Both the position numbers and the translations under genes were made by a program. This document shows, piece by piece, positions 3,494 to 19,442 of a stretch of DNA of 27,247 bases. The DNA comes from a virus, in the IMG/VR virus record IMGVR_UViG_3300043567_000050, positions 1 through 27,247 of that record; one strand, 5' to 3'. Numbering within the stretch: position 1 is the first letter of the stretch; each line of letters begins with the position of its first letter. The notes below the pieces were generated by a model. That model saw only the letters and a program-made list of their open reading frames with translations, did not search any database and was not told the origin of the DNA.

Positions 3494-6244
3494 ATGAAGA
3501 TAATAAATGCTTTACAGGCAAAAGGAGGAGCAACAACAGAAAATAACAGAATGGGTAGTATTACCCAACCGTTACAGTTTATTCCTAAAAAAGAAAAAGA
3601 TGAAAAGTGGGCAGCTTGGAATTTAGATTGGTTAGAGTGGCAAGGATTAAAACAAATCCGGAGAAATGCCAGAAGACTAATGAAAAATTATAAACTGGCC
3701 AAAGGTATAATAGATAAGTCTGATTATATAGTAGAAGAGAACAATGACTACAGAGATATAGTTGAAACACTTACTAAAGAAGATGTATCAGCATTAGAGT
3801 TAAAGTTCTACCCAATTATCCCAAATGTTATTAATGTTCTAGTAGCTGAATTTGCTAAAAGATCTACTAAGCTTACATATAGAGCAGTAGATGAGTTCTC
3901 ATATAATGAGATGATGGAGCAAAAAAGACAAATGGTAGAAGATGTCCTATTAGAAGATGCAAGACTTAAAGTATCTTCTGCACTTATGGATAAAGGTCTT
4001 CAACCTGACTCAGAGGAATTCCAACAAGAAACATCTCCAGAAAAACTTAAATCTCTTCCTGAAATTGAAATGTACTTTAGAAAAGACTACAGATCAATGG
4101 TAGAAGAGTGGGCTACACATCAGCATAAAGTAGATGTAGAAAGATTCAGAATGGATGAGCTTGAAGAAAGAGGTTTCCGTGATATGTTAATTACAGATAG
4201 AGAGTTCTGGCATTTCCGTATGATGGAGGATGATTATGAAGTAGAGTTATGGAATCCAGCTATCTCATTCTATCATAAGTCACCAGATGCTAGATATATA
4301 TCACAAGCTAACTGGGCTGGTAAAACTGATATGATGACCCCGGCAGATGTTATTGATAGATATGGTTATCTAATGGATGAAGAACAGTTAAAAGCACTTG
4401 AAGCTGTTTATCCTATCAGATCTGCAGGTTATACTATTGGTGGTCTTCAAAATGACGGTAGCTTTTATGATGGTACTAAATCACATGACTGGAATACTAA
4501 CATGCCATCACTTGCATACAGACAATATACTACTGCAATGGGTGGTGCTGTATTAGAAGGTGGAGATATTATTACACAGATACTTTCTGAAGGAGAAGAT
4601 TATTATGATCAAGGTACTGCATATCTATTAAGAGTATCTACAATATACTGGAAATCTCAGAGAAAAATTGGACATCTCATTAGTATAGATGATAATGGCC
4701 AAGTAGAAATGGATATAGTAGATGAAGACTATAAGATATCTACAAAACCTATATATGATACTAGGTTATTTAAAAACAAAAGCAAAGACAATCTAGTATA
4801 TGGTGAGCATATAGACTGGATATGGATTAATGAGGTTTGGGGTGGTATTAAAATAGGACCAAACATCCCATCTTTCTGGGGTATGAATAATCCAGGAGGA
4901 TTTACTCCTATGTACATTGGTGTTGATAAACCTAAGATAGGTCCATTAAGGTTTCAGTTTAAAGGTGACAATTCACTATATGGATGTAAACTTCCAGTAG
5001 AAGGATCTGTATTCTCAGACAGGAATACTAAGTCTACTGCACTTATTGACTTAATGAAGCCATACCAGATTGGTTATAACATAGTAAATAACCAGATAGC
5101 GGATATCTTAGTAGATGAGCTTGGTACTATAATCATGCTTGACCAGAATACTTTACCAAGACACTCCTTAGGAGAAGATTGGGGTAAAGGAAATTATGCT
5201 AAGGCTTATGTGGCAATGAAGAATTTCCAGATGTTACCATTAGATACTTCTATTACAAACACTGAGAATGCATTAAACTTCCAACACTTCCAAAAACTAG
5301 ATCTATCTCAGACAGAAAGATTAATGTCAAGGATACAGTTAGCTAATCACTTTAAGCAACAAGCTTATGAAGTAATAGGTGTAACTCCACAAAGAATGGG
5401 ACAGCAAATTGCACAAATGACTGCCACCGGAGTAGAACAAGCAGCAGCTTCTTCATATGCTCAAACAGAAATGTTCTTTGTACAACACTGTGATTACTTA
5501 ATGCCAAGAGTTCATCAGATGCGTACTGATCTAGCTCAGTTCTATCATTCTACAAAACCATCAAGCAGGTTAAGTTATATAACCACAGCAGATGAAAAAG
5601 TAAACTTTGAGATAAATGGTACTGAGTTATTAATGAGAGATCTTAACATCTTCTGTAGTACAACTGCAAACCATAGAGCTGTATTAGAACAGTTAAAACA
5701 AATGGCTATGCAGAATAATACTACAGGAGCTAGTATCTATGATCTTGGTAAAATTGTTCAATCTGATTCTATTGCTGAACTTAACAGTGCTCTTAAATCT
5801 TCTGAGCAAAAACAACAGCAACAAAAACAAGAAGAAATGCAACAACAACAGCAAATGCAAGAACAACAACTTCAGAAACAACAAGAGATTGAGAAGATGA
5901 AGATTGATGCTACTGCTGCTGAGAAAGAGAAAGATAGACAAACTGAAGTTCTTATTGCTGAAATTAGAGCAGCTGGTTATGGATCTATGGCTGATGTCAA
6001 CAAAAATGAAATCTCTGACTATCAAGATGCTATGAAAGACATTAGACAAAGTGAACAGTACATGGCCCAAAATCAATTGCAAAGAGATAAAGAAGCTACT
6101 AGAACTATGTTAGATAGAGACAAGAATGCTATTGAAAGAGAGAAGATACAAGCACAAAGAGAGATAGCTGATAAGCAACTTCAAGTAGCTAGAGTAAATA
6201 AAAATAAATATGATAAGGGTGGTTCAGTGAAAAATAAAAAGTAG
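3494..6244 (+). CDS. Portal protein with Gln-rich coiled-coil C-terminus
   Basis: This 916-aa protein follows TerL by 5 nt. Size, position and the N-terminal segment (residues about 35-130, with WAAWNLDWLEWQGLKQIRRN and a YPIIPNVINVLVAEFAKRS stretch) fit the large portal proteins of crAss-like phages. The portal forms the dodecameric DNA channel at one capsid vertex and docks the terminase and later the tail rings. The C-terminal third is a long predicted coiled coil; residues about 770-800 are very rich in Gln (QKQQQQKQEE type), followed by charged helical sequence. The last residues read KYDKGGSVKNKK, the same tag as on small lysine-rich proteins downstream. It is followed by a 92-nt non-coding gap with a candidate promoter. 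Confidence 0.88.
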   Translation: MKIINALQAKGGATTENNRMGSITQPLQFIPKKEKDEKWAAWNLDWLEWQGLKQIRRNARRLMKNYKLAKGIIDKSDYIVEENNDYRDIVETLTKEDVSALELKFYPIIPNVINVLVAEFAKRSTKLTYRAVDEFSYNEMMEQKRQMVEDVLLEDARLKVSSALMDKGLQPDSEEFQQETSPEKLKSLPEIEMYFRKDYRSMVEEWATHQHKVDVERFRMDELEERGFRDMLITDREFWHFRMMEDDYEVELWNPAISFYHKSPDARYISQANWAGKTDMMTPADVIDRYGYLMDEEQLKALEAVYPIRSAGYTIGGLQNDGSFYDGTKSHDWNTNMPSLAYRQYTTAMGGAVLEGGDIITQILSEGEDYYDQGTAYLLRVSTIYWKSQRKIGHLISIDDNGQVEMDIVDEDYKISTKPIYDTRLFKNKSKDNLVYGEHIDWIWINEVWGGIKIGPNIPSFWGMNNPGGFTPMYIGVDKPKIGPLRFQFKGDNSLYGCKLPVEGSVFSDRNTKSTALIDLMKPYQIGYNIVNNQIADILVDELGTIIMLDQNTLPRHSLGEDWGKGNYAKAYVAMKNFQMLPLDTSITNTENALNFQHFQKLDLSQTERLMSRIQLANHFKQQAYEVIGVTPQRMGQQIAQMTATGVEQAAASSYAQTEMFFVQHCDYLMPRVHQMRTDLAQFYHSTKPSSRLSYITTADEKVNFEINGTELLMRDLNIFCSTTANHRAVLEQLKQMAMQNNTTGASIYDLGKIVQSDSIAELNSALKSSEQKQQQQKQEEMQQQQQMQEQQLQKQQEIEKMKIDATAAEKEKDRQTEVLIAEIRAAGYGSMADVNKNEISDYQDAMKDIRQSEQYMAQNQLQRDKEATRTMLDRDKNAIEREKIQAQREIADKQLQVARVNKNKYDKGGSVKNKK

Positions 6245-6336: not shown

Positions 6337-7599
6337 ATGGAAGACACAACCAAAACTGGGGAGACCCAGACATTAGACACTACAACGGTAGGTCAAGTAG
6401 ATGTAAATATTGATGAGATCTTTGGAATACCAGGAGCAGAGAATGTAATGCTTCCTGAGGATGGCAAAGAAGATGATAAACCCAAGTCTTTATTTTCAAA
6501 AGAAAATGTAGACACTACGTTCCTTGACAACTCACCTGCTACTCCAAAAGAAAAGGAGGAAGCAGCTGAAAAGAAAGCCGAAGTTGAAGAAACCATTGCA
6601 GAGCTTGATGGTCTAATTGCACAAGAAGAAGATGCTGGAAATAAAGGAAGACCTAAAGTAGATAAATCTGGTCTTTATGATTTAGCACAGAAAATGATTG
6701 AAGAAGGAAGTCTAATACCTTTTGATGATGATAAATCATTAGAAGATTATACTACTAAAGACTTCAGAGAGTTATTTGAAGCTAACTTCCAAGAAAGAGA
6801 AGACAAAGTAAGAAATAATGTACCAAGAGAATTCTTTAATGCACTTCCAGAAGAACTTCAGTACGCTGCTAAATATGTAGCTGATGGAGGTCAAGATCTT
6901 AAAGGTCTATTTAGAACCTTAGCTCATGTAGAAGAAATGAGACAACTTGATCCATCTGATGAGTATGATCAAGCAGAAATTGCAAGACAATATCTTTATG
7001 CTACAAATTTTGGAACAGTTGAGGAAATAGAATCAGAAATCCAAGATTGGCAAGACATGGATAAGCTAGAGCAAAAAGCTAACCAGTTCAAACCAAAGTT
7101 AGATAGAATGCAAGAAGAAATTATTGCAAGACAGCTAGCAGAGCAAGAAGATAGAAAAGAGCAACAACAAGCAGCGGCAAAAGCTTACACAGATAATGTA
7201 TATAGTACTCTTGCTGCAGGTGACATAGGTGGAATTAAACTTGATAAGAAAACACAAGGTTTACTTTATTCAGGATTAGTACAACCTAATTACCCTTCAA
7301 TTTCTGGTAAGCCTACAAACTTACTTGGACACTTATTAGAGAAGTATCAGTTTGTAGAACCAAGACATGATCTTATTGCTGAAGCACTTTGGTTACTTGC
7401 TGATCCTAATGGATATAAGAATAGAGTAAAAGAACAAGGCGGAAGACAAGCTACAGAAAAAGTAGTAAGACAATTGAAAACAGAAGAGGCTAGAAGAAGT
7501 ACAGCATCTACTCAGTATGAAGAACCTGAGAGAAGAAATACAACTACTAGGGCTCCACAAAAAACCATCTCAAGAGCAAATATGTTTAAGAGATTTTAA
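6337..7599 (+). CDS. Probable capsid scaffold protein
   Basis: This 420-aa protein sits immediately before the major capsid gene, the usual place for a scaffold. The N-terminal ~110 residues are highly acidic, low in complexity and probably disordered. A charged, coiled-coil-like region spans about residues 226-290 (EIESEIQDWQDM, then EQEDRKEQQQAAAK). The C-terminus is short and basic, ending SRANMFKRF, which resembles the MCP-contacting tails of other scaffolds. It contains few hydrophobic core segments. Scaffolds direct procapsid curvature and are usually expelled or cleaved; I see no prohead protease gene in the window. Its own leader contains an AAAACCAACA element (6324-6333) and it follows a candidate promoter. 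The function is inferred from position and composition, not from a recognised family. Confidence 0.68.
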   Translation: MEDTTKTGETQTLDTTTVGQVDVNIDEIFGIPGAENVMLPEDGKEDDKPKSLFSKENVDTTFLDNSPATPKEKEEAAEKKAEVEETIAELDGLIAQEEDAGNKGRPKVDKSGLYDLAQKMIEEGSLIPFDDDKSLEDYTTKDFRELFEANFQEREDKVRNNVPREFFNALPEELQYAAKYVADGGQDLKGLFRTLAHVEEMRQLDPSDEYDQAEIARQYLYATNFGTVEEIESEIQDWQDMDKLEQKANQFKPKLDRMQEEIIARQLAEQEDRKEQQQAAAKAYTDNVYSTLAAGDIGGIKLDKKTQGLLYSGLVQPNYPSISGKPTNLLGHLLEKYQFVEPRHDLIAEALWLLADPNGYKNRVKEQGGRQATEKVVRQLKTEEARRSTASTQYEEPERRNTTTRAPQKTISRANMFKRF

Positions 7600-7625: not shown

Positions 7626-9242
7626 ATGGCAACTCCAGTTTTAAACAATGGTATATTTCTACGGGATACCGCGTACAATGCTACGTCACACGTAGACTCT
7701 TATCACTTGGTTAACATGTTGAAGGATGCAGAACCAATGGATTTAGGTCCAGTGGACCTTTGGGCTATGGCTCAGAAGGTAGAAATGCCTCTTTACCAAA
7801 TGTCTAGCTTTGGTGGTAAAAATGTAATTATGGTTGATAATGCTCGTGGTGAGTATAAGTGGCAGACTCCAGTGTCTGTGGACTTACCTTACATCCTTGA
7901 GGATATTGAACCAGACAACAATTTTAAAGGTATTGAAGGTTCAACCTTCCGTATCAAACTTAGCAGACGTGAGTTTGGACATGGTGATATCATCACTTAT
8001 GACAAATATAACGGAGTTGAGATGTACATTACTGCTGAAGATATTCTTCCATTAGGAGATGCTTATATCTATACAGTGCAGTTAGTAAACAATGATAACT
8101 TCAAATATTTGGATAACAAGTACTTGGCTAATGGTACTAAAGTTTTCCGTAAAGGTTCTGCCCGTGGAGAATATGGTGAAAGATTCTCAGATATCACAAC
8201 AAGAACAGGATTCCGTGAATTCTATAACTTTGTTGGTGGTGCTGAAGCTCACGTACATTATTCTATCTCTAGCCGTGCTGACTTGATGATCAAAGGTGGT
8301 ATGAATGCAGATGGTACAGTTCCTGTAACTGAGATCTGGAGAACATTTGACAAATCTGTTGATCCATCAATCACTTCTTTGGAAGACATGGTTAAAGTAA
8401 TGGGTAAAGATAAAGTTAAAAAAGCATTTGATAACGGAGACTTATCACGTACTTTCTTAACTACAATGGAAGCTGCTCACTTAACTAAAATTGCTTCTGA
8501 CATTGAGACTTACTTAATGTGGGGACAAGGAGGTAGAGTACGTCAAGATGGTCCAGATGATCTAAGATTATCTGTGGGTCTTTGGAAACAGTTAGATAAC
8601 TCATTCAAAAGAGTATACAACAAAAACAACTTTACATTAGATTTATTCCGTGGAGAGATCTACAACTTCTTCAATGGTAAAGTTGAGTTCCAAGGTCCAG
8701 ATCCAAAAAGATCTTTAGTAGTTCAAACTGGTATGGGTGGTATGAGAATGGTAAATGAAGCTATCAAGCGTGAGGCTGTATCTTCAGGTTTACTTATTCA
8801 GGCTGCTGATATTGGTGCAATCACTGGTAAAGGTATGGACTTGAACTTTGGATTTGCTTATACTTCATATGTAATTCCATTCTTGGCAAATGTTAAGTTT
8901 GTACTTAACCCAGCATTTGACAATGTTCATACAAATGATATTGAGAACCCAATCATTGATGGTTTCCCATTATCTTCTTACTCATTCATTATCTTTGATA
9001 TCACTGATAACACTAATGACAACATCTTCTTGTTGAAGTTATCTTGGGATAATCAATTGAAATGGTGGTATCAAAATGGTACTATGGATTATATGGGCCG
9101 TTCTCAAGGATTCCAGTCTTCTGGTCAATTCAACGGATACCGTGTGATGATGTCTCAAACAATGCCAGCTATCTGGGTTAAGGATCCAACTAAAGTCCTT
9201 AAGATTGTTATGAGAAACCCAATCACTGGTGGATCATTCTAA
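7626..9242 (+). CDS. Major capsid protein (HK97-fold expected)
   Basis: This 538-aa protein lies between a scaffold-like gene and a strong terminator, the expected MCP position in this gene order. The N-terminal region (NNGIFLRDTAYNATSHVD) and the aromatic-rich middle fit crAss-like major capsid proteins, which have the HK97 fold; I cannot point to single diagnostic residues. Codon use differs from most neighbours: arginine is often CGT (about a dozen cases) rather than AGA, and Phe/Ile/Asn codons often end in C. This is typical of very highly expressed genes. The leader has a tandem A-rich repeat and the stop is followed 18 nt later by an intrinsic terminator. All of this supports an abundant structural protein. 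Confidence 0.88.
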   Translation: MATPVLNNGIFLRDTAYNATSHVDSYHLVNMLKDAEPMDLGPVDLWAMAQKVEMPLYQMSSFGGKNVIMVDNARGEYKWQTPVSVDLPYILEDIEPDNNFKGIEGSTFRIKLSRREFGHGDIITYDKYNGVEMYITAEDILPLGDAYIYTVQLVNNDNFKYLDNKYLANGTKVFRKGSARGEYGERFSDITTRTGFREFYNFVGGAEAHVHYSISSRADLMIKGGMNADGTVPVTEIWRTFDKSVDPSITSLEDMVKVMGKDKVKKAFDNGDLSRTFLTTMEAAHLTKIASDIETYLMWGQGGRVRQDGPDDLRLSVGLWKQLDNSFKRVYNKNNFTLDLFRGEIYNFFNGKVEFQGPDPKRSLVVQTGMGGMRMVNEAIKREAVSSGLLIQAADIGAITGKGMDLNFGFAYTSYVIPFLANVKFVLNPAFDNVHTNDIENPIIDGFPLSSYSFIIFDITDNTNDNIFLLKLSWDNQLKWWYQNGTMDYMGRSQGFQSSGQFNGYRVMMSQTMPAIWVKDPTKVLKIVMRNPITGGSF

Positions 9243-10353: not shown

Positions 10354-11013
10354 ATGGCAACTAAAAAAATGGTTAAAAAACCAGTAATGAAAAAAGGTGG
10401 ATATTTAAAAAAGAAAGGTGATGGTGGTGGTTGGCATGCTCCTATGGCATTACCAGAAAATCCTAAAACTCAATCTCCTATGGTAGGACCAATGAATAAT
10501 CCTGCAAATAATAATATACAGAATGTTCCTAATGCTGCTTCAAGTGCAAAAAAGGCTAATTTGCAAAGTGTTCCTAGTGCTGGTTCAAGTAATGTTCTAA
10601 ATGCAGCAGATAAAATAAAAATTGGAATGCAAAATACTCCTAAACAAAAAAAAGGCGGATCTATGAAAAAAATGAAAACAGGTGGTATGGTAAATGCTAA
10701 TGCTAACCTAAAAGCAACAGCAACTGCTGGTAGCAAAGGTGTTAAGTCTGGTGTAAATCCTAAAGCTGCTGCTTCTAATGTAGCTAAGAAACCTTCTAAG
10801 CCAAGAAGCAAAGCTCCTAAGAAAGCATTACCAAAAGCTGCATATGGAATGTCTGTAAAAGGATATAACATGGGTGGTGGTACTGGAGATGGTACTCAAG
10901 TACCATATGGTACTCAAACTTTTAAGGAAGTTACTGTTACTGCACCAAAAAAATCTAAAGGTAAGCCAAAAGCTAAGTATGGTATGTCAATAACCAAAAT
11001 GAAAAAGAAATAG
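10354..11013 (+). CDS. Lys/Gly-rich KGG-motif protein, possible virion cargo
   Basis: This is a 219-aa, very basic, low-complexity protein. KGG/GG motifs occur at about residues 15, 24, 101, 110 and 174 (for example KKGGSMKKMKTGG). A 15-residue near-duplication has QNVPNAASS at 56-64 and QSVPSAGSS at 71-79. YGMS occurs twice (164 and 209). TFKEVTVTAPKK (about 189-200) resembles the EVVVTA motif at the N-terminus of mature TonB-dependent receptors, perhaps by chance. It has no hydrophobic core, so it is probably disordered or nucleic-acid-associated. It is the first of eight small lysine-rich genes spaced about 2 nt apart and shares its motif with the portal C-terminus. Function unknown; internal virion protein or DNA-condensing cargo is a hypothesis. 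Confidence 0.75.
   Translation: MATKKMVKKPVMKKGGYLKKKGDGGGWHAPMALPENPKTQSPMVGPMNNPANNNIQNVPNAASSAKKANLQSVPSAGSSNVLNAADKIKIGMQNTPKQKKGGSMKKMKTGGMVNANANLKATATAGSKGVKSGVNPKAAASNVAKKPSKPRSKAPKKALPKAAYGMSVKGYNMGGGTGDGTQVPYGTQTFKEVTVTAPKKSKGKPKAKYGMSITKMKKK
10519..10590 (+). repeat. 45-nt-period degenerate tandem duplication inside a CDS
   Basis: CAGAATGTTCCTAATGCT from 10519 and CAAAGTGTTCCTAGTGCT from 10564 are spaced exactly 45 nt apart, and each continues into a similar TTCAAGT. They encode the repeated (Q)xVPxAxSS segments. This is an in-frame duplication that has since diverged. Confidence 0.6.
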
Positions 11014-11015
11014 TC

Positions 11016-11354
11016 ATGCCAAAAGATGCATGCTACTCTAAAGTAAAAGCACAGTATGCTGTGTTTCCTTCAGCAAGAGCTTCACAGGCTATTGCTAAAT
11101 GTAGGAAAGGTTCTGGTACAGTTAGAAAAACTAAGGCCGGTACTGAGCTTAAAAGATGGCAAGCAGAGAAATGGCAAGATACTAAATCAGGAAAACCTTG
11201 TGGTGCCGGTGGTAAAAATGAATACTGCCGGCCTACAAAAAGAGTATCAAAGGATACTCCTAAAACAAAATATGAACTAACTCCTTCTAAACTAGCTGCT
11301 AAAAAAGCTGAAAAGTCTAGAGTAGGTATGGGAAGAAGAGTTAAAAAAGCATAG
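11016..11354 (+). CDS. Small basic cysteine-containing protein (DUF5872-like)
   Basis: This 112-aa basic protein starts 2 nt after the previous stop. The pattern PSARASQAIAKCRK, then LKRWQAEKWQDTKSGKPCG, then EYCRPTKRVSKDTPKT matches my memory of the DUF5872-type family. That family occurs in environmental phages and in some giant eukaryotic viruses. The cysteines (residues about 6, 28, 62, 70) could bind metal, but spacing is not a classic finger. The C-terminus ends in basic residues (GMGRRVKKA). The function of the family is unknown. It belongs to the group of lysine-rich mini-genes and is a candidate internal virion or nucleoid-like protein. The family assignment is from memory and needs an HMM search. 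Confidence 0.75.
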   Translation: MPKDACYSKVKAQYAVFPSARASQAIAKCRKGSGTVRKTKAGTELKRWQAEKWQDTKSGKPCGAGGKNEYCRPTKRVSKDTPKTKYELTPSKLAAKKAEKSRVGMGRRVKKA

Positions 11355-11356
11355 TT

Positions 11357-11596
11357 ATGGCAATTAAAAAAACAACAACTAAAAAAACACCAGCTAAGAA
11401 AAGTCCTTCAGTTGGTATTTCCATTTCAAGCAGTAGCAAGAATGAAATGAGAAAGTGGGAAGTAGAATCTGCTGTGTCTACATTACAAAGAGCATCTGAG
11501 ATACAAAAGAATGCTAAGTTAATGGCAGATGTAAAAAAGATGGCAGCTGAGAAAGCAAAAGAATTTAACAGCATTGCTGCTGGTAAAAAGATTTAA
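11357..11596 (+). CDS. Small histone-H1-tail-like basic protein
   Basis: This 79-aa protein has an N-terminal tail resembling histone H1 C-terminal tails (IKKTTTKKTPAKKSP). A serine patch (SISSSSK) follows, then one or two amphipathic helices (about residues 28-75, EVESAVSTLQRASEIQKNAK) and a terminal GKKI. The tail suggests DNA or RNA binding and the helices suggest oligomerisation; both are inferences. It lies 2 nt after its upstream neighbour and 2 nt before the next gene. No family recognised. Confidence 0.72.
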   Translation: MAIKKTTTKKTPAKKSPSVGISISSSSKNEMRKWEVESAVSTLQRASEIQKNAKLMADVKKMAAEKAKEFNSIAAGKKI

Positions 11597-11598
11597 TT

Positions 11599-11865
11599 AT
11601 GGCACAGGCAAAAACTAAGAAAGTAAAAGTTACTGCCGGTGGTGAAAAGCATGTAGTATATAAAAAGACTACAAAAAAAGGTGAAGGAAAGGTTGGCCAC
11701 ATTATGGTCAACCATCCTACCAAAGATAAAGGACAGTGGGATACTATAGACTTAACTGCAAAAGGAAGAGCAAAAACAATTAAGCAAGGAGTAGCAGCTA
11801 CAAAAAAATGGCATAAAGACAACCCGGACTATAAATATAAAGGTAAAGGCAATGGCAGGAAGTAG
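11599..11865 (+). CDS. Small basic phage protein
   Basis: This 88-aa lysine-rich protein has a conserved-looking centre (DTIDLTAKGRAKTIKQGVAATKKWHKDNP, from about residue 49) and basic N- and C-terminal extensions. The N-terminal half reads as beta strands (VKVTAGGEKHVVYKK). I have the impression of relatives in environmental Bacteroidota phages but cannot name a family. It overlaps the next gene by 14 nt in a different frame, the only overlap of this kind in the group, which supports coupled translation. Confidence 0.72.
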   Translation: MAQAKTKKVKVTAGGEKHVVYKKTTKKGEGKVGHIMVNHPTKDKGQWDTIDLTAKGRAKTIKQGVAATKKWHKDNPDYKYKGKGNGRK

Positions 11866-12205
11866 AGCACAGCAAGCAGCAATAGCTATCTCAATGAAGA
11901 AAGCTGGTAAGAAACCTAATATGAAATCTGGTGGTTCTACTCCCGCATGGACAAGGTCAGAAGGAAAAAATAAGACAGGAGGTCTTAATGCTAAAGGTGT
12001 TGCTTCTTATAGAAGAGAAAACCCGGGCAGTAGATTGAAACTTGCAGTTACTACTAAGCCTTCTAAACTAGATCCTGATAGCAAAGCAGCTAAGAGAAGA
12101 AAAAGCTTCTGTGCTAGATCTGCCGGGCAAATGGCTAATTTTCCAAAAGCTGCAAAAGATCCAAATAGTAGATTAAGATTAGCAAGAAAAAAATGGAACT
12201 GTTGA
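11852..12205 (+). CDS. Small basic protein (DUF6321-like)
   Basis: This is a 117-aa protein. The segment AWTRSEGKNKTGGLNAKGVASYRRENPGS (about residues 31-59) followed by RRKSFCARSAGQM (about 82-94) and a C-terminal SRLRLARKKWNC fits what I recall of DUF6321. That family is shared by phages, mostly aquatic, and giant viruses, with unknown function. The ATG lies inside the end of the preceding gene. Its last residues KKWNC and the matching DNA recur at the end of the next gene (HNH), which appears to be inserted here. The many Arg/Lys residues and Gly turns suggest nucleic-acid contact. Confidence 0.78.
   Translation: MAGSRAQQAAIAISMKKAGKKPNMKSGGSTPAWTRSEGKNKTGGLNAKGVASYRRENPGSRLKLAVTTKPSKLDPDSKAAKRRKSFCARSAGQMANFPKAAKDPNSRLRLARKKWNC
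12189..12205 (+). repeat. Left copy of 17-bp imperfect direct repeat flanking HNH gene
   Basis: AAAAATGGAACTGTTGA here and AAAAATGGAATTGTTAA at 12763-12779 differ at two positions. Each copy includes a stop codon and encodes KWNC at the end of its gene. The two copies bracket the HNH gene, consistent with insertion or with 3'-end mimicry. Confidence 0.6.
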
Positions 12206-12206
12206 T

Positions 12207-12779
12207 ATGCCATCAAAGAAGATAGAATATAATTGTACACATTGCAATTCTCTTTTTATAAGAGGTAAATATGATATTGAAAGAACTTTAAAAAAGAATA
12301 ATACTGTTTTTTGTAGCATTACATGTTCAAAAGAATACAGTAATAAAATACAATTAGAAAAAGGTTTTTCAGAAAATAAAACATGTAAAAAATGTAACAT
12401 AGAAAAACCAAGAACAAATGAATATTTTACAGCACATAAAAGAACATTAGATGGTTTTGATAGTTGGTGTAAAACATGTAGAGGTAATTATAGAAGTGAG
12501 ATAAGAAGAGGTCAATATAGGTCAATGATAAGTGATGAAGAATTAAAAAACTTATTAAAAACTGAAGGTTGTATTATATGTGGATCTGAAGATAAACTTG
12601 TAGTTGATCATTGTCACACTACAAATATAGTAAGAGGAATGCTTTGTAATAACTGTAATATGGGATTAGGTCATTTTAAAGATGATCCATTTTTATTAGA
12701 GTTTGCACGGATTTATTTACTATATTATAATAAAGAGTCTTCTGAAGCAGAAGAGTATTTGGAAAAATGGAATTGTTAA
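12207..12779 (+). CDS. HNH / recombination endonuclease VII-like protein with zinc fingers
   Basis: This 190-aa protein carries three cysteine pair sets. C10xxC13 with C36xxxC40 and C60xxC63 with C88xxC91 form two N-terminal zinc knuckles. C122xxC125 with C147xxC150 brackets the LVVDHCHTT nuclease motif (D134, H135, H137) and VRGMLCNNCNMGLGHFKDDP. The latter block is diagnostic of the endonuclease VII / HNH fold. Such free-standing enzymes in phages usually act as homing endonucleases; a T4 gp49-like resolvase role is less likely given the location among unrelated mini-genes. Its base composition is visibly more AT-rich and glycine-poor than its neighbours. It starts 1 nt after the previous stop, and both gene ends carry the KWNC repeat. 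It is probably a mobile insertion. Confidence 0.88.
   Translation: MPSKKIEYNCTHCNSLFIRGKYDIERTLKKNNTVFCSITCSKEYSNKIQLEKGFSENKTCKKCNIEKPRTNEYFTAHKRTLDGFDSWCKTCRGNYRSEIRRGQYRSMISDEELKNLLKTEGCIICGSEDKLVVDHCHTTNIVRGMLCNNCNMGLGHFKDDPFLLEFARIYLLYYNKESSEAEEYLEKWNC
12763..12779 (+). repeat. Right copy of 17-bp imperfect direct repeat flanking HNH gene
   Basis: AAAAATGGAATTGTTAA ends the HNH gene and matches 12189-12205 at 15 of 17 positions. It encodes the KWNC terminus and stop. The alternative is chance similarity of a short AT-rich gene end. Confidence 0.55.
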
Positions 12780-12791
12780 AACATATATAAA

Positions 12792-13436
12792 ATGAAAACT
12801 TGTAAATACGGTTGTGGTAAAATGAAAGAAGGTGGTAAAGTTGCTACTATTAAAAAAATGGCTAAAGGCGGTCCTGGAGAATGTCCTCCTGGACAGTGTC
12901 CAAAATCTATTGGTGGAAAAAAAGTTGGTTGCGGACCTTGTAGTGCTGGTTTAATTGCCGGTCTTGTAGGTAGCATTGGTGGCTCAGCTGCTGTTGCAAC
13001 TAAAATGATTTCAGATGCCATTAAAGCTAAGAAAGCAAAAAAGAAAGAAAAAGAAGCTGCTAAAAACTCTGAAGAAAAAAGAAAAGGCGGATCAGTTAAG
13101 AAATATGCTGCTGGTGGTAACACTGGTGGATATGCTCCAGCTCAAAAAGGTGGAGACAATACTAAAATGGGAATCTATGGTATTCCTAATGCTGGTAGAA
13201 CAGATTCATTAGGATTTAAAAAAGGTGGTTCTACAACTAGTAGAGCAGTAAAACCAGGATGCCGTGGAGGTATGGTTAAAGATGCTTCTGGTAATTGTGT
13301 TGCTGAAAGAAAGTTTAAAGCAGGTGGTTCATTAAAACCAGTACCGGCAGGTAAAGTTGGTTTATCAAAATTACCTACTGCTGTAAGAAACAAAATGGGA
13401 TTCCAGAAAAAAGGCGGAGCAGTTAAAAAGAAATAG
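12792..13436 (+). CDS. KGG-repeat protein with Cys cluster and glycine-rich hydrophobic segment
   Basis: This is a 214-aa protein. Nine GG motifs, mostly KGG or AGG (near residues 14, 26, 99, 108, 120, 145, 159, 178 and 208), are spread along it. N-terminal cysteines CKYGCGK (C4, C8) and CPPGQC / CGPC (C31, C36, C47, C50) precede a small-residue hydrophobic stretch SAGLIAGLVGSIGGSAAVATKMI (51-73, a possible membrane helix). A Lys-rich helix follows (about 78-98). It ends KKGGAVKKK, close to the portal end KGGSVKNKK. The mix of membrane-like helix and basic tails could fit a protein stored in the virion and ejected with the genome, but this is inference. No family recognised. Confidence 0.75.
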   Translation: MKTCKYGCGKMKEGGKVATIKKMAKGGPGECPPGQCPKSIGGKKVGCGPCSAGLIAGLVGSIGGSAAVATKMISDAIKAKKAKKKEKEAAKNSEEKRKGGSVKKYAAGGNTGGYAPAQKGGDNTKMGIYGIPNAGRTDSLGFKKGGSTTSRAVKPGCRGGMVKDASGNCVAERKFKAGGSLKPVPAGKVGLSKLPTAVRNKMGFQKKGGAVKKK

Positions 13437-13438
13437 TC

Positions 13439-13612
13439 ATGGCAACCAAAAAGAAGTCAGATAAAAAGTGGATGCAAAAAGTTTCAGCCTCTATTGAACG
13501 TAGAGGTACTGCAGGCAAATGTACTCCAATAACTAAACCTGGCTGCACTGGTAAAGCTAGAACTTTAGCACTGACTTTTAAAAAAATAGCAAAAGCTAAT
13601 AAAAAGAAATAA
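13439..13612 (+). CDS. 57-aa basic protein (KCTPITKPGCT family)
   Basis: This short gene fills the gap between two neighbours with 2-nt spacings on each side. It encodes 57 residues starting MATKKKSDKKWMQKVSASIE. The centre GKCTPITKPGCTGKART (about 26-42), with two cysteines, and the TFKKIAKANKKK end match a mini-protein type I recall from many uncultured Bacteroidota phages, usually unannotated. It belongs with the lysine-rich group, and its charged C-terminus KKK is the shared ending. Function unknown; a virion or nucleic-acid-associated role is a guess. Confidence 0.8.
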   Translation: MATKKKSDKKWMQKVSASIERRGTAGKCTPITKPGCTGKARTLALTFKKIAKANKKK

Positions 13613-13614
13613 CT

Positions 13615-13908
13615 ATGAAAAAGACTAATAAAGAAAATCCTATTACATTCTTCAGAAAAGCTAATGAAGCTAGACAAAAACTAGTTAAAAAATCTATGGG
13701 AGGACCGGGTAATGAAGTTGATCCTTATAGTGCAACTGAAGAATCTGGCCCTAAAGAACAAAAAGCTCAAGAAGCTTATGATCTTAATAGCAAAAGTAAA
13801 ACAAAAGGTTATTCTAATGTAGCAGCTGGTAAACAGTGGACTACTGGAACAGTCGCACCATATGCACCTATTAAGAAAAAAGGTGGCTCTGTAAAAAGAA
13901 AAAAATAA
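13615..13908 (+). CDS. Small basic protein with C-terminal KGGSVK tag
   Basis: This is a 97-aa protein. The N-terminal basic amphipathic helix (FFRKANEARQKLVKKSMGG, about 12-30) is followed by a polar, probably disordered centre and an aromatic segment (GKQWTTGTVAPYAPIK). It ends KKKGGSVKRKK, almost identical to the portal terminus (DKGGSVKNKK). The codons for this tag differ between the two genes, so selection is at protein level. It is the last of the lysine-rich set and lies 3 nt before a conserved structural gene. No family recognised. Confidence 0.75.
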   Translation: MKKTNKENPITFFRKANEARQKLVKKSMGGPGNEVDPYSATEESGPKEQKAQEAYDLNSKSKTKGYSNVAAGKQWTTGTVAPYAPIKKKGGSVKRKK

Positions 13909-14615: not shown

Positions 14616-15128
14616 ATGGCAACAAGAATGTTAAAAAGAAATCCTGAACCTGCTAGAACAATCAGTAGACCAGAAGTAACTGTAACACAACCTAAACAAG
14701 AATCAGCTAAACCACAGCCAACTCCGGATACAGGAGTAGGTGGTAGCTCATTAGATAATATGGTAGCAGCATGTGCAATGGAACTTATGAATGCTAGAAA
14801 TAGTTTTCACAAGCTTCATTTAAAAGTAAAAGGAGAAGGATCTTATGCAGCACATATTGCAATAGGAGATTTCTATGATGGTTTACCAGGACATGCTGAT
14901 ACACTTGTAGAAGGTTATCAAGGAGTTTCTGAAAAACTATTAACAATAAAAGATGTAGCACCAAGAACATTGGATACTGTAGCTGATGGTGTATCATATC
15001 TTAGAGATCTGTATGCTATGATAAACAAACTTCAGGGGATGCTACCTTATTCAGAGATAGTAAATAACCTAGACTTAGTTAAAGATTCTATTAATTCTAC
15101 TAAGTATAAATTACTTTTCTTGAAATAA
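14616..15128 (+). CDS. Dps/ferritin-like four-helix protein (DUF5856-like)
   Basis: This is a 170-aa protein with a disordered Pro/Gln N-terminal extension (1-43) and a helical core. Residues H68, H80, D84/85, D95 and E99 follow nearly the Dps ferroxidase spacing (H, +12 H, +4 D, +11 D, +4 E), in HLKVKGEGSYAAHIAIGDFYDG and ADTLVEGYQG. I recall DUF5856 proteins of T4-like marine phages with the same FYDG/VE.YQG signature. In bacteria Dps stores iron and shields DNA. Here the gene sits at the end of the virion operon, so it may be a virion component or an oxidative-stress protector for the host. The position of one ligand (D85 versus the expected 84) is slightly off, so activity is uncertain. 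Confidence 0.72.
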   Translation: MATRMLKRNPEPARTISRPEVTVTQPKQESAKPQPTPDTGVGGSSLDNMVAACAMELMNARNSFHKLHLKVKGEGSYAAHIAIGDFYDGLPGHADTLVEGYQGVSEKLLTIKDVAPRTLDTVADGVSYLRDLYAMINKLQGMLPYSEIVNNLDLVKDSINSTKYKLLFLK

Positions 15129-15193: not shown

Positions 15194-16780
15194 ATGAGTT
15201 ATTTTAATCATGCCTTTAGAAAAACCTTTGTGGGAACCATAGGAGGTTATACTCCTCTTGATGGGGGTCAGTTAGGAACTACTGGGAATATTTTTCCTGG
15301 TGGATCATTTGGATTTGTTAATCCTAAAACTTGGAGTATAGTTCCAACAACTTATAATGCTGAAACAGTTGGTTGTTGTAACCTTATCCTTGCTGCAGGT
15401 TCAATTTATCAAAATGATAAAATTGGTCCTTTCCATGGAGGATATACAGAATCTAACAAATCTAAGGAAATCAATCCAAGATATGTAAACAAATTCTACC
15501 GTGTAGATCCATGTTTACCACAAAATGAAGTAGTACATGTTGGTAACACAGCTTGGACTGATAGCGTTGCATTATCATTATCTACAGCTGGTGCTGGTGA
15601 TCCAGGTGCTAACTTAGTTGATGGTGTATACACAGATATTCCATTAGATGCAGTTGGTCCTTCAACAGGAGTTGGTTTAGTAGTTAATATCACTGTAGTA
15701 GGTGGTGAAGTTACTTTTGTAGAAATTGTAAATGGTGGTTCAGATTGGACAACAGCTGATACAGCTACAACAGGAACTGAACTTATTCCTGAAGATGGTG
15801 ACGGTACACAACCTATATTTGTTGTAACAGCTGGTGTTGGTGCTAACTGTTGTAAAGAATTCTTTTGTGGTGAGACTTATACATTACGTGTTGATGTTAA
15901 AGGTTCTCCTGCATTAAGATTATTAAACCACAACTCTTACATCATTGCTTCTGCATATGGTGGATGTTGTCCAGAAGGTGCAATTGCTCCAGTAGTAATT
16001 GACTCTACATTAATCTTCAAACAATGGGCTGAAGCTATTACTAGATATCCAGTTATCTCTCCATTCATGCAAATCATCTTAGTTGATGAAACAGGTACTC
16101 CTTGGTATGCACCAGGAACAAGTGCTGCTTTCTTAGCTGCTAATGATGTTGATACTTGGGATCATTATGTATCTCCAGGACACACTCCTGATGGTTGTGC
16201 TGGTTTAGTTCTTAACGGAGCTTATGTAGATACTAAATTCCAAAACTGTACATTCCAAATCACTGACTTCTATGAAGTAGAGCCAGTTAGATTGTATGTA
16301 TCTGAAATGGACTTAAATGGTGATCCATGTTTATTCAATGGAGTATGTGTAGTTAAAGAATGTGAAGGAAGACAAGTAATGGGATTAGGTGAGTCAGTTG
16401 CAAGAGATGTTATTTTATCTGAGCAATACAGACAAAACTTCTTCCATTCAGATTTCCGTATCAGGGAGATTACACAAGGATACAGTGTGTTTGATTTCAT
16501 TAACCGTAATGTATTGTACACAAGATACTTTATCCAACATAATGTACCACGTTTCAATAACCCAACTAGTACATTTGATAATGACCAATACTTGTTAGAA
16601 GTTATTACTTGTGATCGTATTGTTGCATTTGAAACTTTTGTTAATGCATGGTTAGCTAACTGTTCTCAGTGTACAGGTCTTGAAGTAGAAGGATGTGTTG
16701 AAGATGCTTGTGAGCCGGTTTATAACTTCCCAGTTTTAACAACAAACTTCACTCCTAACACAACACAATTGTGTGATTAA
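15194..16780 (+). CDS. Abundant virion structural protein with inserted beta domain
   Basis: This 528-aa protein has its own candidate promoter and a terminator 21 nt after the stop. CGT arginine and C-ending codons are frequent, as in MCP. The backbone (NDKIGPFHGGYTESNKSKEINPRYV near 74-98, then ETYTLRVDVKGSPALRLLNHNSY near 227-249, RFNNPTSTFDNDQYLLEVI toward the end) belongs to a family I recall as an unassigned structural protein of Bacteroidota-type phages. A Gly/Val/Thr-rich block at about 126-216 (GVYTDIPLD, ITVVGGEVTFVEIVNGGSDW) looks like a separate beta-sandwich module inserted between C107 and C219/C220. Capsid auxiliary, head fiber or tail part are all possible. High abundance is the best-supported inference. 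Confidence 0.8.
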   Translation: MSYFNHAFRKTFVGTIGGYTPLDGGQLGTTGNIFPGGSFGFVNPKTWSIVPTTYNAETVGCCNLILAAGSIYQNDKIGPFHGGYTESNKSKEINPRYVNKFYRVDPCLPQNEVVHVGNTAWTDSVALSLSTAGAGDPGANLVDGVYTDIPLDAVGPSTGVGLVVNITVVGGEVTFVEIVNGGSDWTTADTATTGTELIPEDGDGTQPIFVVTAGVGANCCKEFFCGETYTLRVDVKGSPALRLLNHNSYIIASAYGGCCPEGAIAPVVIDSTLIFKQWAEAITRYPVISPFMQIILVDETGTPWYAPGTSAAFLAANDVDTWDHYVSPGHTPDGCAGLVLNGAYVDTKFQNCTFQITDFYEVEPVRLYVSEMDLNGDPCLFNGVCVVKECEGRQVMGLGESVARDVILSEQYRQNFFHSDFRIREITQGYSVFDFINRNVLYTRYFIQHNVPRFNNPTSTFDNDQYLLEVITCDRIVAFETFVNAWLANCSQCTGLEVEGCVEDACEPVYNFPVLTTNFTPNTTQLCD

Positions 16781-16801
16781 TAGGAATTAAACTATAAACA
16801 T

Positions 16802-16836
16802 AAGGGGAGCCGAGTATATTACTCCTCCCCTTTTTT
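16802..16836 (+). terminator. Intrinsic terminator with two-part stem
   Basis: AAGGGGAG (16802-16809) pairs with CTCCCCTT (16825-16832), and GAGTA (16812-16816) pairs with TACTC (16820-16824), leaving a CC bulge and a 3-nt loop. Six T residues follow (16831-16836). The next gene starts 12 nt later without a recognisable promoter, so this may be a readthrough terminator. Confidence 0.9.
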
Positions 16837-16848
16837 ATTATAAACATC

Positions 16849-17391
16849 ATGGCAAATCATGTATTAAGCTTGGAATTACCTACAGTTATGAACTCATGTA
16901 TCATGAAGTTATTTGATACAAGTGTTTATACAACATTACTTCCGGTAACTTGTCCTACATTAAATATAACTGTACCTGGATTTGGATATTCAGTACAGCT
17001 AGATACTACTGAAAACTTTGCAGAGACAATAACTGCATGTGACCTTCAGTTACAAACTGAAGATTGTGGAACAGTAAATTATGATATACCAGACGGGATA
17101 TATATTATCAAGTATAGTGTATCTCCTAATGATCAGGTATATGTAGAATATAACCACATGAGAATTACACAAGCTTTAATAAAGTACAATAAAGTTTTGT
17201 GTGATGTGGATGCTGCAGCATGTGATCCGCCAGCAGCAATCAAAAAGAAATTAGAAGCTTTGAGATTAATTAATATGTATCTTCAAGCTGCAAAAGCAAA
17301 AGTGGAATATTGTCATGAGCCTCAGAAAGGAATGAGCTTATACAATTATGCACTTAAGCTTTTGAATAAATTAACTTGTACTAATTGTTAA
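16849..17391 (+). CDS. Conserved cysteine-containing structural protein
   Basis: This is a 180-aa protein. The N-terminal half is beta-rich (residues about 1-105, SLELPTVMNSCIMKLFDTSVYT, PDGIYIIKYSVSPNDQVYVEYNHMR). The C-terminal half is helical (about 127-175, KKKLEALRLINMYLQAAKAKVEYC), ending LTCTNC. About nine cysteines are present, many beyond the start of the helical half. The beta/helix plan and position fit a small adaptor or decoration that holds the fibers encoded next to it. I recall relatives adjacent to the same CxxC mini-protein in other environmental phages but know no function. It follows a terminator closely and so depends on readthrough or an unseen promoter. Confidence 0.72.
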   Translation: MANHVLSLELPTVMNSCIMKLFDTSVYTTLLPVTCPTLNITVPGFGYSVQLDTTENFAETITACDLQLQTEDCGTVNYDIPDGIYIIKYSVSPNDQVYVEYNHMRITQALIKYNKVLCDVDAAACDPPAAIKKKLEALRLINMYLQAAKAKVEYCHEPQKGMSLYNYALKLLNKLTCTNC

Positions 17392-17398
17392 ACATTTT

Positions 17399-17408
17399 AA
17401 AACCAACA
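17399..17408 (+). promoter_or_regulatory. AAAACCAACA translation-leader element
   Basis: The same 10-mer precedes the starts at 6337 and (twice) 9325; here it ends 2 nt before the ATG at 17411. No Shine-Dalgarno is present. It is probably a translation-initiation leader rather than a promoter. Confidence 0.4.
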
Positions 17409-17410
17409 AA

Positions 17411-17611
17411 ATGAGTAGTTGTCCTAATTGCGGAGCCAAATTAAGTTGTGGATGTCAGAAAAGAACACTTCCAAATGGAAAACAAGGATGTAGTAATTGT
17501 GCTACTAAAGCTCAGAAAGTAGCAGCACAAACTAAACCAGTTGTTCCAACTGTAAACACAAATACTTGGGGACCAAATAGATATTTAAACCTGAAGAAAT
17601 TTACCAAATAA
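17411..17611 (+). CDS. 66-aa zinc-ribbon-like mini-protein
   Basis: Residues 4-36 contain CPNCGAKLSCGCQKR and then GCSNC, giving six cysteines in C-x2-C, C-x-C and C-x2-C groups, enough for a zinc ribbon. The rest is polar and ends in KFTK. It lies 19 nt after its neighbour, behind an AAAACCAACA leader, and 1 nt before the large cysteine-rich gene. I recall this CGAKLxCGCQ-type protein as a common companion of these structural genes. Role unknown: it could be a metal-binding structural cap or a chaperone for the cysteine-rich proteins around it. Confidence 0.78.
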   Translation: MSSCPNCGAKLSCGCQKRTLPNGKQGCSNCATKAQKVAAQTKPVVPTVNTNTWGPNRYLNLKKFTK

Positions 17612-17612
17612 A

Positions 17613-19427
17613 ATGGCTGCTGTAACATTTGAACGTATTGTAATAAGGTTCACAAGTTGTTGTGATGAAACTGTCTTTTTAGAATTTCTATATGATGGTA
17701 CAACTGACTATGGAACATTGGTAAAACCTACTACATTATTTCCAGGATTTACAGATACATGTTACAGAGTAACCACATACTTAACCGGTGATTGGTCTGG
17801 ATTAAATCCAGCACCTTCATTAGCTTATTTTACTGTTTTATCAATAAGCCCAGATCCAGATTGTACTGACTATGATGAAGAATGCCCAGATTGTCAAACA
17901 ACGTGTTACACATTATACAACTGTGATGGTCAATTTTTTAATAGTACAAATCCCAGTTTAGAAAGTGTTGTAGGTGAATATGTTGTTATAGTAGCTGATG
18001 GTGAAAATTCAACATGGTTTGTATTAGAAAATACAGGTTATTGCAATAGTCCATTTAATGATTTTATAATAGATGATCTTGGTCCTACACCTTGTCCTTG
18101 TAAATGTTATGAAATAACAGGTGTAATTAAACAAGTAATCTATATTGATTGTGATGGTGTTATACAAACTCTTGTAGGAGTAGGACCTTTTGACAAGTTC
18201 TGTTCACAAATTTATCCAATAGTAAACGGTATACCTGGTAATTATCAAGTTGTAGATAATGGTGACTGTGTTGATGGAGACTGTCCATTAGTTTGTTATG
18301 AACTTGAAAACTGTGATACAAGTGAAATCATATATTCTACACTACAAAGTTTATTTCAATATGCTAATACTAGTACTGTAGTTCAAATAGAAGGTTATGA
18401 TGGATGCTGGTCTGTAAGAGAATCAGAAGAACTTTGTGATTGTCCTATTAGCCCTATAGTAGTTAGAGAGTATGGATCTTGTGGAGAATGTTTACCTATA
18501 ATAGCATATAAACTTACAGGTTGTGAGAACCCTGATGATATAAAATATACTTATCAAGACTTATCTTTATTTGTTGGAGAGTATGTTAAAGTAGAAGACT
18601 GTGGTTGTTTCTTTGTAGAACTTATAGATTTCCAACCACCAAGCATAACTACTGTAGTTATACTAACTTCATTTAACTCATGTACTGCATGTTTGACTCA
18701 GTATTATATATTAGAAGATTGCAATAGCTTGCTTGATCCAATATATACAGGTTCTGATCTTTCTACTTATCTTGATGATATAGTTAATGTACAAGGCTGT
18801 GAGGGCTGCTGGGAAATAAGTGAAGTTGAGATACCAATAAATCCGGTAGCTGTTACAATAACTAAGACTTATATAGATTGTCCATCTTGTACACCTGTGC
18901 TTCCGTGCATGTGTAATAAAATGACAAATTTTAGTACTCAAGATAAAGAGTATGAGTATATAGATTGTAATGATCAAACAGTAGTTTTAAAATTAGGAGC
19001 AGGAGAAACAAGTGGAAAGATATGTCTTAAAGTTTGGACAATAGATTATCCTGACACAGATACATTAGAAATATTTGGTGAGTGTTCAGAAACTAATACA
19101 CCAGGTATTTATACTTGTCCAATAGTTACTCCTAAAAGAAAGATTAAACCAGGATACTCTGTTCCAACATGTGATATAGATAAGTGGGAAAAGATTACTT
19201 GCAGAGCATCAGAGATATTATATAAAGAAGTCATGAGACTCAGATATGGATTAACTAACTGTTGCCCTGAAGATGATGAGAAGTGGTTAATTAAAAAAGA
19301 GCTGATAGATTTGGCTGCTTTAGTTGATCCTGATTATATATGTAAACCAGTTCAGTCTTGTGGTTGTCCACCAAGTTCATGCGGGTGTGGATGTAATTCA
19401 ACACTTAAGACTTGTAATTCTCAATAA
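17613..19427 (+). CDS. Cysteine-rich modular repeat protein, likely fiber or decoration
   Basis: This 604-aa protein has about 50 cysteines. Two module types alternate. Type A (about 65 residues; YxLxxC, then a YTxxDLSxY-like stretch, then V-x-V-x-GCxGCW and a closing SCxxC) occurs at about 98-163, 228-293, 298-360 and 364-426. Type B (aromatic-Ile-x-C/SC, hydrophobic strand, GxG, then FC/IC-x-x-V/I) occurs at about 7-80, 165-222 and 432-497. The order is B-A-B-A-A-A-B. A helical C-terminal domain follows (520-577, WEKITCRASEILYKEVMRLRYG), then a CGCPPSSCGCGC tail. It has no signal peptide. Such modules suggest a stable beta-rod, perhaps disulfide-bonded once outside the cell or zinc-bound. 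Receptor binding or decoration is inferred. Confidence 0.8.
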   Translation: MAAVTFERIVIRFTSCCDETVFLEFLYDGTTDYGTLVKPTTLFPGFTDTCYRVTTYLTGDWSGLNPAPSLAYFTVLSISPDPDCTDYDEECPDCQTTCYTLYNCDGQFFNSTNPSLESVVGEYVVIVADGENSTWFVLENTGYCNSPFNDFIIDDLGPTPCPCKCYEITGVIKQVIYIDCDGVIQTLVGVGPFDKFCSQIYPIVNGIPGNYQVVDNGDCVDGDCPLVCYELENCDTSEIIYSTLQSLFQYANTSTVVQIEGYDGCWSVRESEELCDCPISPIVVREYGSCGECLPIIAYKLTGCENPDDIKYTYQDLSLFVGEYVKVEDCGCFFVELIDFQPPSITTVVILTSFNSCTACLTQYYILEDCNSLLDPIYTGSDLSTYLDDIVNVQGCEGCWEISEVEIPINPVAVTITKTYIDCPSCTPVLPCMCNKMTNFSTQDKEYEYIDCNDQTVVLKLGAGETSGKICLKVWTIDYPDTDTLEIFGECSETNTPGIYTCPIVTPKRKIKPGYSVPTCDIDKWEKITCRASEILYKEVMRLRYGLTNCCPEDDEKWLIKKELIDLAALVDPDYICKPVQSCGCPPSSCGCGCNSTLKTCNSQ

Positions 19428-19442
19428 TAATTAGTATATTAT
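19411..19442 (+). promoter_or_regulatory. Weak candidate promoter before the fiber gene
   Basis: CTTG (19411-19414), 20 nt and TATATTAT (19435-19442) match the other candidate promoters. The -7 box ends only 3 nt before the ATG at 19446, so a transcript would be leaderless or nearly so. It also overlaps the end of the upstream gene. It may be a chance match in AT-rich DNA. Confidence 0.28.

Follow-up and report, generated by a model that had tools for sequence, protein, structure and literature searches.

A C-terminal KGG tag on basic mini-proteins of aquatic crAss-like phages and a similar tail on the crassvirus cargo protein C1

We analysed a 27,247-base virus record (IMG/VR IMGVR_UViG_3300043567_000050, positions 1 to 27,247; the whole stretch is called the window), which carries the structural module of an aquatic crAss-like phage. 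Between its post-capsid gene and its adaptor-position gene lie eight small genes for basic proteins (mini-genes 1 to 8, positions 10354-13908), interrupted by a single HNH gene, as a preliminary description of the sequence had reported. Some of these proteins, and many of their relatives, end in a short tag with the consensus KKGG-[SAVTM]-[VI]-K-x-KKK, most often placed 8-11 residues from the C-terminus, which is tied to this position and almost certainly a selected sequence element. A similar element ends gp45, the cargo protein C1 of the crassvirus crAss001. We consider it an even bet that the operon makes basic proteins built into the phage head and that the C-terminal tag on some of them loads the proteins into the capsid lumen or keeps them there, and we propose the same lumen-loading role for the tail of C1.

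At least 598 IMG/VR stretches encode a relative of the window's capsid protein, of which the best 80, with 92-100% identity, were kept. From 158 loci we obtained 77 distinct intervals running from the post-capsid to the adaptor gene, the remaining loci lacking an anchor or being repeats. A simple longest-frame caller found 550 plus-strand open reading frames (ORFs) in these intervals, 4-11 in each with a median of 7, and the median summed net charge was +154 per interval. Among 312 nonredundant mini-proteins, 90 have [KR]GG within their last 16 residues, against 11.6 by shuffling (maximum 22 in 300 shuffles), and 68 of the 381 [KR]GG occurrences in these proteins stand 8-11 residues from the end. 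The residue frequencies of the 90 tags follow K/R-K/R-G-G-[S A V M T]-[V 0.58, K 0.20, I 0.13]-K(0.89)-x-K(0.90)-K-K, with the second residue after GG being V, I, L or M in 68 of them, compared with 17.7% of tail residues. A looser pattern, GG.[VILM][KRTN].?[KR].?[KR] within the last 24 residues, ends 80 of the 312 proteins.

The proteins that share this ending are otherwise largely dissimilar. After removal of the last 24 residues from 84 tagged proteins, 209 of 3486 pairs (6.0%) had similar bodies at 1e-6; bodies were clustered with coverage limits, single linkage alone having joined 246 mini-proteins into one family. The statement of the preliminary description that the mini-genes are not one duplicated gene thus holds, and duplication of a single gene was rejected since both the Pfam families and the protein bodies differ.

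The order of the residues in the tag is strict. The DNA form of KKGGx[VIM]KxKKK followed by a stop codon matches 97 stretches in the viral collection, while orders permuted to begin with GKGK or GGKK match none. In the genome collection the true-order strict pattern has no match and a relaxed form has four, one of which is, by reading, a full-length protein of 159 residues on an archaeal contig (L535). The mini-proteins are rich in lysine and glycine, and such sequence might drift into KGG by chance; we regard this as exceedingly improbable, for neither the permuted-order scans nor the composition-preserving shuffles reproduce the tag. Chance from composition was rejected on shuffles of the window, of the relatives' intervals and of eleven longer relatives.

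Within the window, [KR][KR]GG occurs six times in the eight mini-proteins against 0.78 expected, and [KR]GG[SAMT][VMTI][KR] five times against 0.05; none of 2000 shuffles, each keeping the composition per protein, reached either count. The reversed control GG[KR][KR] occurs once (0.76 expected), and the other 18 genes of the window, the HNH gene left out, contain no [KR][KR]GG (0.28 expected). All five KGG strings quoted in the preliminary description exist, but they are confined to the products of mini-genes 1, 6 and 8, three of the five being in mini-gene 6, so that the window alone gives weak support to the claim that several unrelated proteins share the motif. Mini-gene 1 carries its sites as MKKGGY close to the N-terminus and as an internal QKKGGSMKK. 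The portal protein, absent from the earlier list, ends in YDKGGSVKNKK.

The relatives separate the mini-genes into two kinds. By the looser pattern, tags end 5 of 38 relatives of mini-gene 1, 12 of 45 of mini-gene 6 and 13 of 17 of mini-gene 8 (30 of 100 for these variable genes). Relatives of the conserved genes almost never carry one: 0 of 39 for mini-gene 2, 0 of 51 for mini-gene 3, 0 of 29 for mini-gene 4, 1 of 76 for mini-gene 5 and 0 of 47 for mini-gene 7, or 1 of 242 together. The idea that the set as a whole shares the tag is thus not supported, the tag being frequent among relatives of the variable genes only. With the pattern unchanged, we then turned to held-out loci: 80 adaptor loci, of which 47 intervals had already been used, 5 were unusable and 28 were new. 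Here 23 of 147 new distinct mini-ORFs fit, against 0.28-0.51 expected, and one of 195 ORFs outside the interval did so, a portal.

Gene content varies between the relatives, with 4-11 ORFs per interval, and this would fit a tag that matters at the level of DNA, with a GGTGG-type repeat serving as a recombination signal for mini-gene shuffling and the peptide itself without function. Indeed, GGTGGT and GGTGGA together account for 54 of the 75 distinct strict contexts. However, the 75 contexts encode GG by eight different GGN-GGN codon pairs, and the preferences at neighbouring positions are for kinds of amino acid. Although this falls short of full exclusion, we rate a DNA-level effect as very improbable.

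Genome region was compared in eleven longer relatives, whose module borders were set by script in six genomes and by hand in five more, and which, like the relatives in general, are not independent of one another. The looser pattern fits 17 of 70 proteins of the mini-gene cluster and 2 of 57 head proteins (both portals), against 0 of 143 in the tail, 0 of 72 large and 0 of 30 small cargo-side proteins, 0 of 155 antisense ORFs and 0 of 1022 ORFs of the other region, a class set by position and not by proof of absence from virions. ORFs were called on genome pieces no longer than 20 kb; a gene that straddles the border between two pieces is therefore missing or truncated, and short spurious ORFs inflate the other class. 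The preliminary description had named a motif equally frequent in non-virion proteins as the finding that would speak against an address signal; the contrast between the cluster and this positional class, in which we know of one near-miss, is of the opposite kind. In the outgroups the pattern fits 0 of 172 ORFs in Leptolyngbya phage Lbo-JY46, 0 of 197 in Cellulophaga phage phi17:2 and 1 of 208 in csAssE-Sib, a basic ORF of 40 residues.

In Lbo-JY46 and phi17:2 we found no mini-gene run at the place of the operon, the post-capsid gene (identified by position in phi17:2) leading directly to the adaptor-position gene, and a more distant relative with a capsid protein 78% identical (G016) likewise has no run between these genes. 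G016 (loci L238 and L239) does have a few basic mini-genes away from the head genes, at about 37-40 kb, one of which is a homologue of mini-gene 3.

Outside this clade, a similar tail was found on a protein with a known place in the virion. Among 124 called ORFs of crAss001, a single one fits the looser pattern, namely Gp45, which ends GGTKKAKGGKVRTKKKKGLTYG. According to the cryo-electron microscopy (cryo-EM) report, gp45 is the cargo protein C1, with residues 425-552 bound to the portal inside the capsid and residues 214-245 in the tail barrel, and it was detected in the virion by mass spectrometry (PMC10172136). The C-terminal part lies outside the stretches resolved there, and the word lysine does not occur in the main text of that report (PMC10172136). 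Seven of eight Steigviridae C1 proteins, crAss001 included, have KGG in their last 20 residues, DAC15 being the exception. We further collected 80 IMG/VR loci with C1, of which 73 had a called C1 ORF, 69 of them distinct. The looser pattern fits 40 of these 69 (37 of the 58 with at least 600 residues) against 0.02 expected from whole-protein shuffles and 0.45 from tail shuffles, a count that is not blind, as the pattern was written after C1 tails had been seen. These loci hold a further 185 ORFs, none of which fits.

C1 and the mini-proteins are alike in a C-terminal GG-x-[LIV]-[KT]-x-[KR]-[KR] element. C1 is large, has a portal-bound domain and carries a looser tag, often followed by G-[LF]-T-[FY]. 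Three alignments of cargo-side proteins from the aquatic clade gave no significant match when compared with C1 in hhalign; a stretch of cargo-side alignment A6 looks similar to C1 by eye, without hhalign support. With p-crAssphage gp47 as query, no relatives were found among the viral contigs. In crAss001 (NC_049977) an annotated HU/IHF-like protein, Gp42 (36472-37059), stands just before the tail and cargo genes, another DNA-binding protein in the structural region.

These observations bear on the suggestion, made in the preliminary description, that the tag is a common address signal. It gains support from the closely similar element at the end of gp45, whose presence inside the virion is known from cryo-EM and mass spectrometry, and at the ends of many gp45 homologues, although the tag is not common to the whole operon. 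On this reading, the basic C-terminal tails of the tagged mini-proteins and of C1 would bring these proteins into the head during assembly, and may do so by binding an acidic partner there, either the scaffold or the inner capsid surface. Candidate partners in the window would be the acidic protein at the scaffold position and the major capsid protein (Table 1). The tagged proteins would then stay with the DNA after packaging and so be part of the virion, and the conserved members without a tag (mini-genes 2, 3, 4, 5 and 7) might condense the DNA or be injected with it.

The tag might instead be a nucleic-acid-binding tail and nothing more, with GG-x-[VI] as a flexible hinge and the lysine run gripping DNA without any sorting. 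The high charge of the intervals agrees with this, and in T4 the lysines of internal proteins are the only positively charged residues reported to contact DNA phosphates (PMC3012670). In addition, the archaeal protein with the relaxed tag (L535) sits among short basic genes that we take for ribosomal protein genes. On the other hand, S or A followed by V or I after GG, at a fixed distance from the C-terminus, exceeds what charge needs. The arrangement of K and G ahead of the basic run is strict, and five of the eight basic operon proteins have no KGG. We therefore lean against binding as the sole role while taking it as a serious possibility; an address role and DNA binding may both be true.

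Several observations weigh against lumen loading by the tag, besides the manner in which the C1 pattern was written. A lysine-rich tail would bind DNA without any address role. The tag is absent from 19 of the 77 intervals, where no protein has [KR]GG in its last 16 residues, and 10 of the 28 held-out intervals have no match to the pattern; the single tagged protein among the relatives of the five conserved mini-genes means that operon membership does not need the tag. It is rare on portals, where 5 of 101 distinct C-termini from relatives fit, and is missing from the clade's large cargo-side proteins. One ORF upstream of the terminase (G001:89134-89445) ends KKGGAVARKK, which narrowly fails the pattern and was counted under a slightly different definition, so that the zero for the other region depends on the cut-off. 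As for C1, its tails are looser than those of the mini-proteins (often NGGK or KGGY), the collected set holds some of the proteins first read, such as L280, which is identical to crAss001, and two Intestiviridae C1 candidates, matched to gp45 over a short stretch only, have no KGG. The C2 (gp46) proteins have none either (0 of 6). Finally, the large cargo-side proteins show an excess of [KR][KR]GG, with 18 against 4.2 expected in the six genomes and 10 against 2.9 in the five more, which we rejected as main evidence since the sites partly repeat a few orthologous positions, a recurrent KKGGYTPAEL lying inside a conserved stretch. The corresponding counts for the six and the five genomes were 2 and 3 in the other region (3.3 expected in each), 0 and 2 in the tail (0.9 and 0.7 expected) and 0 in the head.

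Several large cargo-side proteins (G001-G006 and G012-G016; loci L088-L124 and L213-L242) end in GGx[VIL]E[YF][LI] or GG[FYS][VI]Y...PF, endings that have the GG-x-hydrophobic core of the tag but no basic tail.

A double glycine close to a terminus may also recall a head-protease site, at which the tag would be removed in maturation. Double-glycine cleavage sites occur elsewhere, and the targeting sequences of T4, which are N-terminal, are cleaved by the prohead protease. Yet a PHROG scan of 20 window proteins recognised no protease, and the gp45 tails vary beyond GG. Cleavage of this type thus seems to us highly unlikely.

The preliminary description knew of no system with the logic of a short address on unrelated proteins, but two described systems work in this way. 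The internal proteins of T4 are a diverse set that shares nothing but a short targeting sequence, and this sequence sends them, and foreign proteins fused to it, to the head (PMC3012670). The mini-proteins resemble them in carrying a short shared peptide on bodies that are otherwise dissimilar, and in that the peptide marks variable members while the conserved ones almost never bear it. They differ in that the tag is C-terminal and basic, and in that no protease was recognised among the window proteins scanned. The cargo loading peptide of encapsulins is C-terminal, has about 10 residues and brings different cargos into a shell of the HK97 fold, where it sits in a hydrophobic pocket (PMC7355545). 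Here the likeness is one of position and length on several proteins, which for the mini-proteins would be cargo; encapsulins are bacterial compartments rather than phage heads, and in the phage tag a single hydrophobic residue precedes a run of lysines. In the open-licence literature, neither the tag, nor its sharing between gp45 and the operon, nor the operon itself was found among the top-ranked matches, and no paper combining the words KKGG, phage and virion was found; this is weak evidence that all three are new.

The strict tag also occurs beyond the aquatic clade. Core genes of this clade are present in 71 of the 97 loci and missing from 26, of which 19 match no gene of the window; nine of the 26 are one near-identical family of 53 residues. 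In three annotated loci of this kind the tagged gene lies two genes after the portal (L365), two genes before the capsid gene (L413) and at a distance of about 3 kb from the gene for a tail sheath (L388). It is conceivable, though we think it unlikely, that tailed phages of aquatic and gut habitats use GG-x-[VI]-K-x-KKK at the C-terminus as a general code for sorting into the capsid lumen. Such a code would have spread across unrelated lineages and would serve C1, some portals and fast-changing operons of mini-proteins that act as exchangeable payload.

Proteins of 600-1097 residues end in the strict tag in loci without a clade core gene (L394:1130-2932, L413:16-3309 and L433:11904-13952). Other phages (L388, which has the tail sheath gene, L435 and L369) have runs of basic mini-genes of their own, which include a family ending in KGGGYK or AGGGYK that is seen in the crAss-like clade too. 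One ORF (L435:9318-9626) has a weak match to PHROG 220, a family of minor head proteins and DNA pilots (E-value 7e-5).

The features of the window are listed in Table 1.

Table 1. Positions of the structural genes and of the mini-gene operon in the window
Feature	Position	Strand	Remarks
Portal gene	3494-6244	+	PHROG 6547, E-value 1e-93; C-terminus KGGSVKNKK (about 6215-6241) fits the tag
Acidic protein at scaffold position	6337-7599	+	420 residues, net charge -28; assigned by position only
Major capsid protein	7626-9242	+	PHROG 11589, E-value 1.5e-30
Mini-gene 1	10354-11013	+	219 residues, net +39; variable, low-complexity; ends MKKK without KGG
Mini-gene 2	11016-11354	+	112 residues, net +23; DUF5872; no KGG
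Mini-gene 3	11357-11596	+	79 residues, net +11; conserved unnamed family; no tag
Mini-gene 4	11599-11865	+	88 residues, net +17; conserved; no tag
Mini-gene 5	11852-12205	+	117 residues, net +24; DUF6321; no terminal tag
HNH / endonuclease VII-like gene	12207-12779	+	Pfam PF02945, E-value 1.2e-14
Mini-gene 6	12792-13436	+	214 residues, net +36; six [KR]GG; C-terminal tag KKGGAVKKK (about 13407-13433)
Mini-gene 7	13439-13612	+	57 residues, net +16; conserved; ends ANKKK without GG
Mini-gene 8	13615-13908	+	97 residues, net +13; C-terminal tag KKGGSVKRKK (about 13876-13905)
Dps/starvation-inducible-like protein	14616-15128		PHROG 858, E-value 1.3e-17

The module runs from the terminase (PHROG 6681, E-value 1e-53) through the portal, the acidic protein, the capsid protein, the post-capsid gene (338 residues) and the mini-genes to the adaptor-position virion protein (PHROG 29507, E-value 2.8e-12) and the Dps-like protein. 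We assign it to the crAss-like phages since its terminase, portal, capsid and adaptor-position genes are related to theirs and stand in the same order, as judged from PHROG matches, portal similarity and the gene order of Lbo-JY46 and phi17:2. Similarity to the portal was found in 136 phage records, none of them reaching 60% identity, which are named for uncultured (49), Bacteroides (30), Flavobacterium (29), Cellulophaga (9) and other phages. The acidic protein matched no PHROG family at E-values up to 0.01. A Dps-like homologue adjoins the adaptor-position gene in all six relatives G001-G006. Further downstream (15194-21381), the tail-region proteins are rich in cysteine, with 50 cysteines in the 604 residues encoded at 17613-19427 and 19, 18, 9 and 9 in four others.

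The eight mini-genes are separated by gaps of 1-12 nt, with one overlap of 14 nt. Lysine and arginine make up 20-32% of their products, and the net charges sum to +179. Mini-genes 2, 3, 4, 5 and 7 are under purifying selection, with median ratios of nonsynonymous to synonymous substitution (dN/dS) of 0.12-0.24 over 13-61 pairs (0.13, 0.22, 0.12 and 0.15 for mini-genes 2, 3, 4 and 7, respectively). One usable pair each gave 0.51 for mini-gene 6 and 0.21 for mini-gene 8, and mini-gene 1 had no usable pair. Relatives of mini-genes 3 and 4 are present in 51 and 29 of the 77 intervals, respectively. Mini-gene 1 matched no PHROG or Pfam family at E-values up to 1, and the N-terminus of mini-gene 8 recurs in relatives while its middle is variable.

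Two of the conserved mini-genes belong to named families. Mini-gene 2 is a member of DUF5872 (PF19197, E-value 1.4e-13, 51.9 bits against a gathering cut-off of 27.5), with four cysteines invariant across an alignment of 26 sequences, and mini-gene 5 is a member of DUF6321 (PF19846, E-value 1.1e-16, 61.6 bits against 28.5), a family detected in all eleven longer relatives. The operon thus shares these families with cyanophages and pelagiphages; in this clade their members lack the KGG tag, save for the single relative of mini-gene 5. DUF6321 is found in 537 phage records, mostly of cyanophages. In cyanophage S-SCSM1 it is part of gp029 (E-value 3e-22), which the record labels a virion protein and which also has a DUF5872-like stretch that the Pfam model misses (42.3% identity by tblastn over residues 5-55 of mini-gene 2, E-value 1e-3). 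We read this label as a mass-spectrometry hit, since the NMNAT of the same record bears it and is among the 45 proteins reported as detected in the S-SCSM1 virion (PMC9602691). Syn9 gp114, which contains DUF6321, is not labelled structural while other proteins of its record are, and gives clear evidence neither way. Unlike in the window, DUF6321 forms the C-terminal part of a larger protein in both Syn9 and S-SCSM1. In the cyanopodovirus P-SCSP2, DUF5872 and DUF6321 are neighbouring separate mini-genes between the scaffold and capsid genes. Structure prediction with AlphaFold2 gave a mean predicted local distance difference test score of 49.9 for DUF5872, and of 66.2 for DUF6321 with a predicted template modelling score of 0.36; a Foldseek search with the latter returned one match (E-value 8). 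Neither family has sequence relatives in the PDB at E-values up to 10, and NCBIfam gave a single match, below its cut-off.

The HNH gene can be read as a homing insertion outside the mini-gene set. Both it and the DUF6321 gene end in ...KWNC with near-identical DNA, and the HNH gene of relative G003, which overlaps DUF6321, likewise ends in EKWNC. The insertion thus seems to have acquired a copy of the 3' end of its target, the DUF6321 gene.

Most of the cargo is unresolved in the crassvirus structure that partly resolves gp45, and a tag of about ten residues, nearly common to gp45 and a set of small proteins, offers a cheap and direct handle on it. If the tag is indeed an address, the cargo of uncultured phages would become predictable from the last residues of their proteins, and proteins of choice could be packed into phage heads to be studied there.

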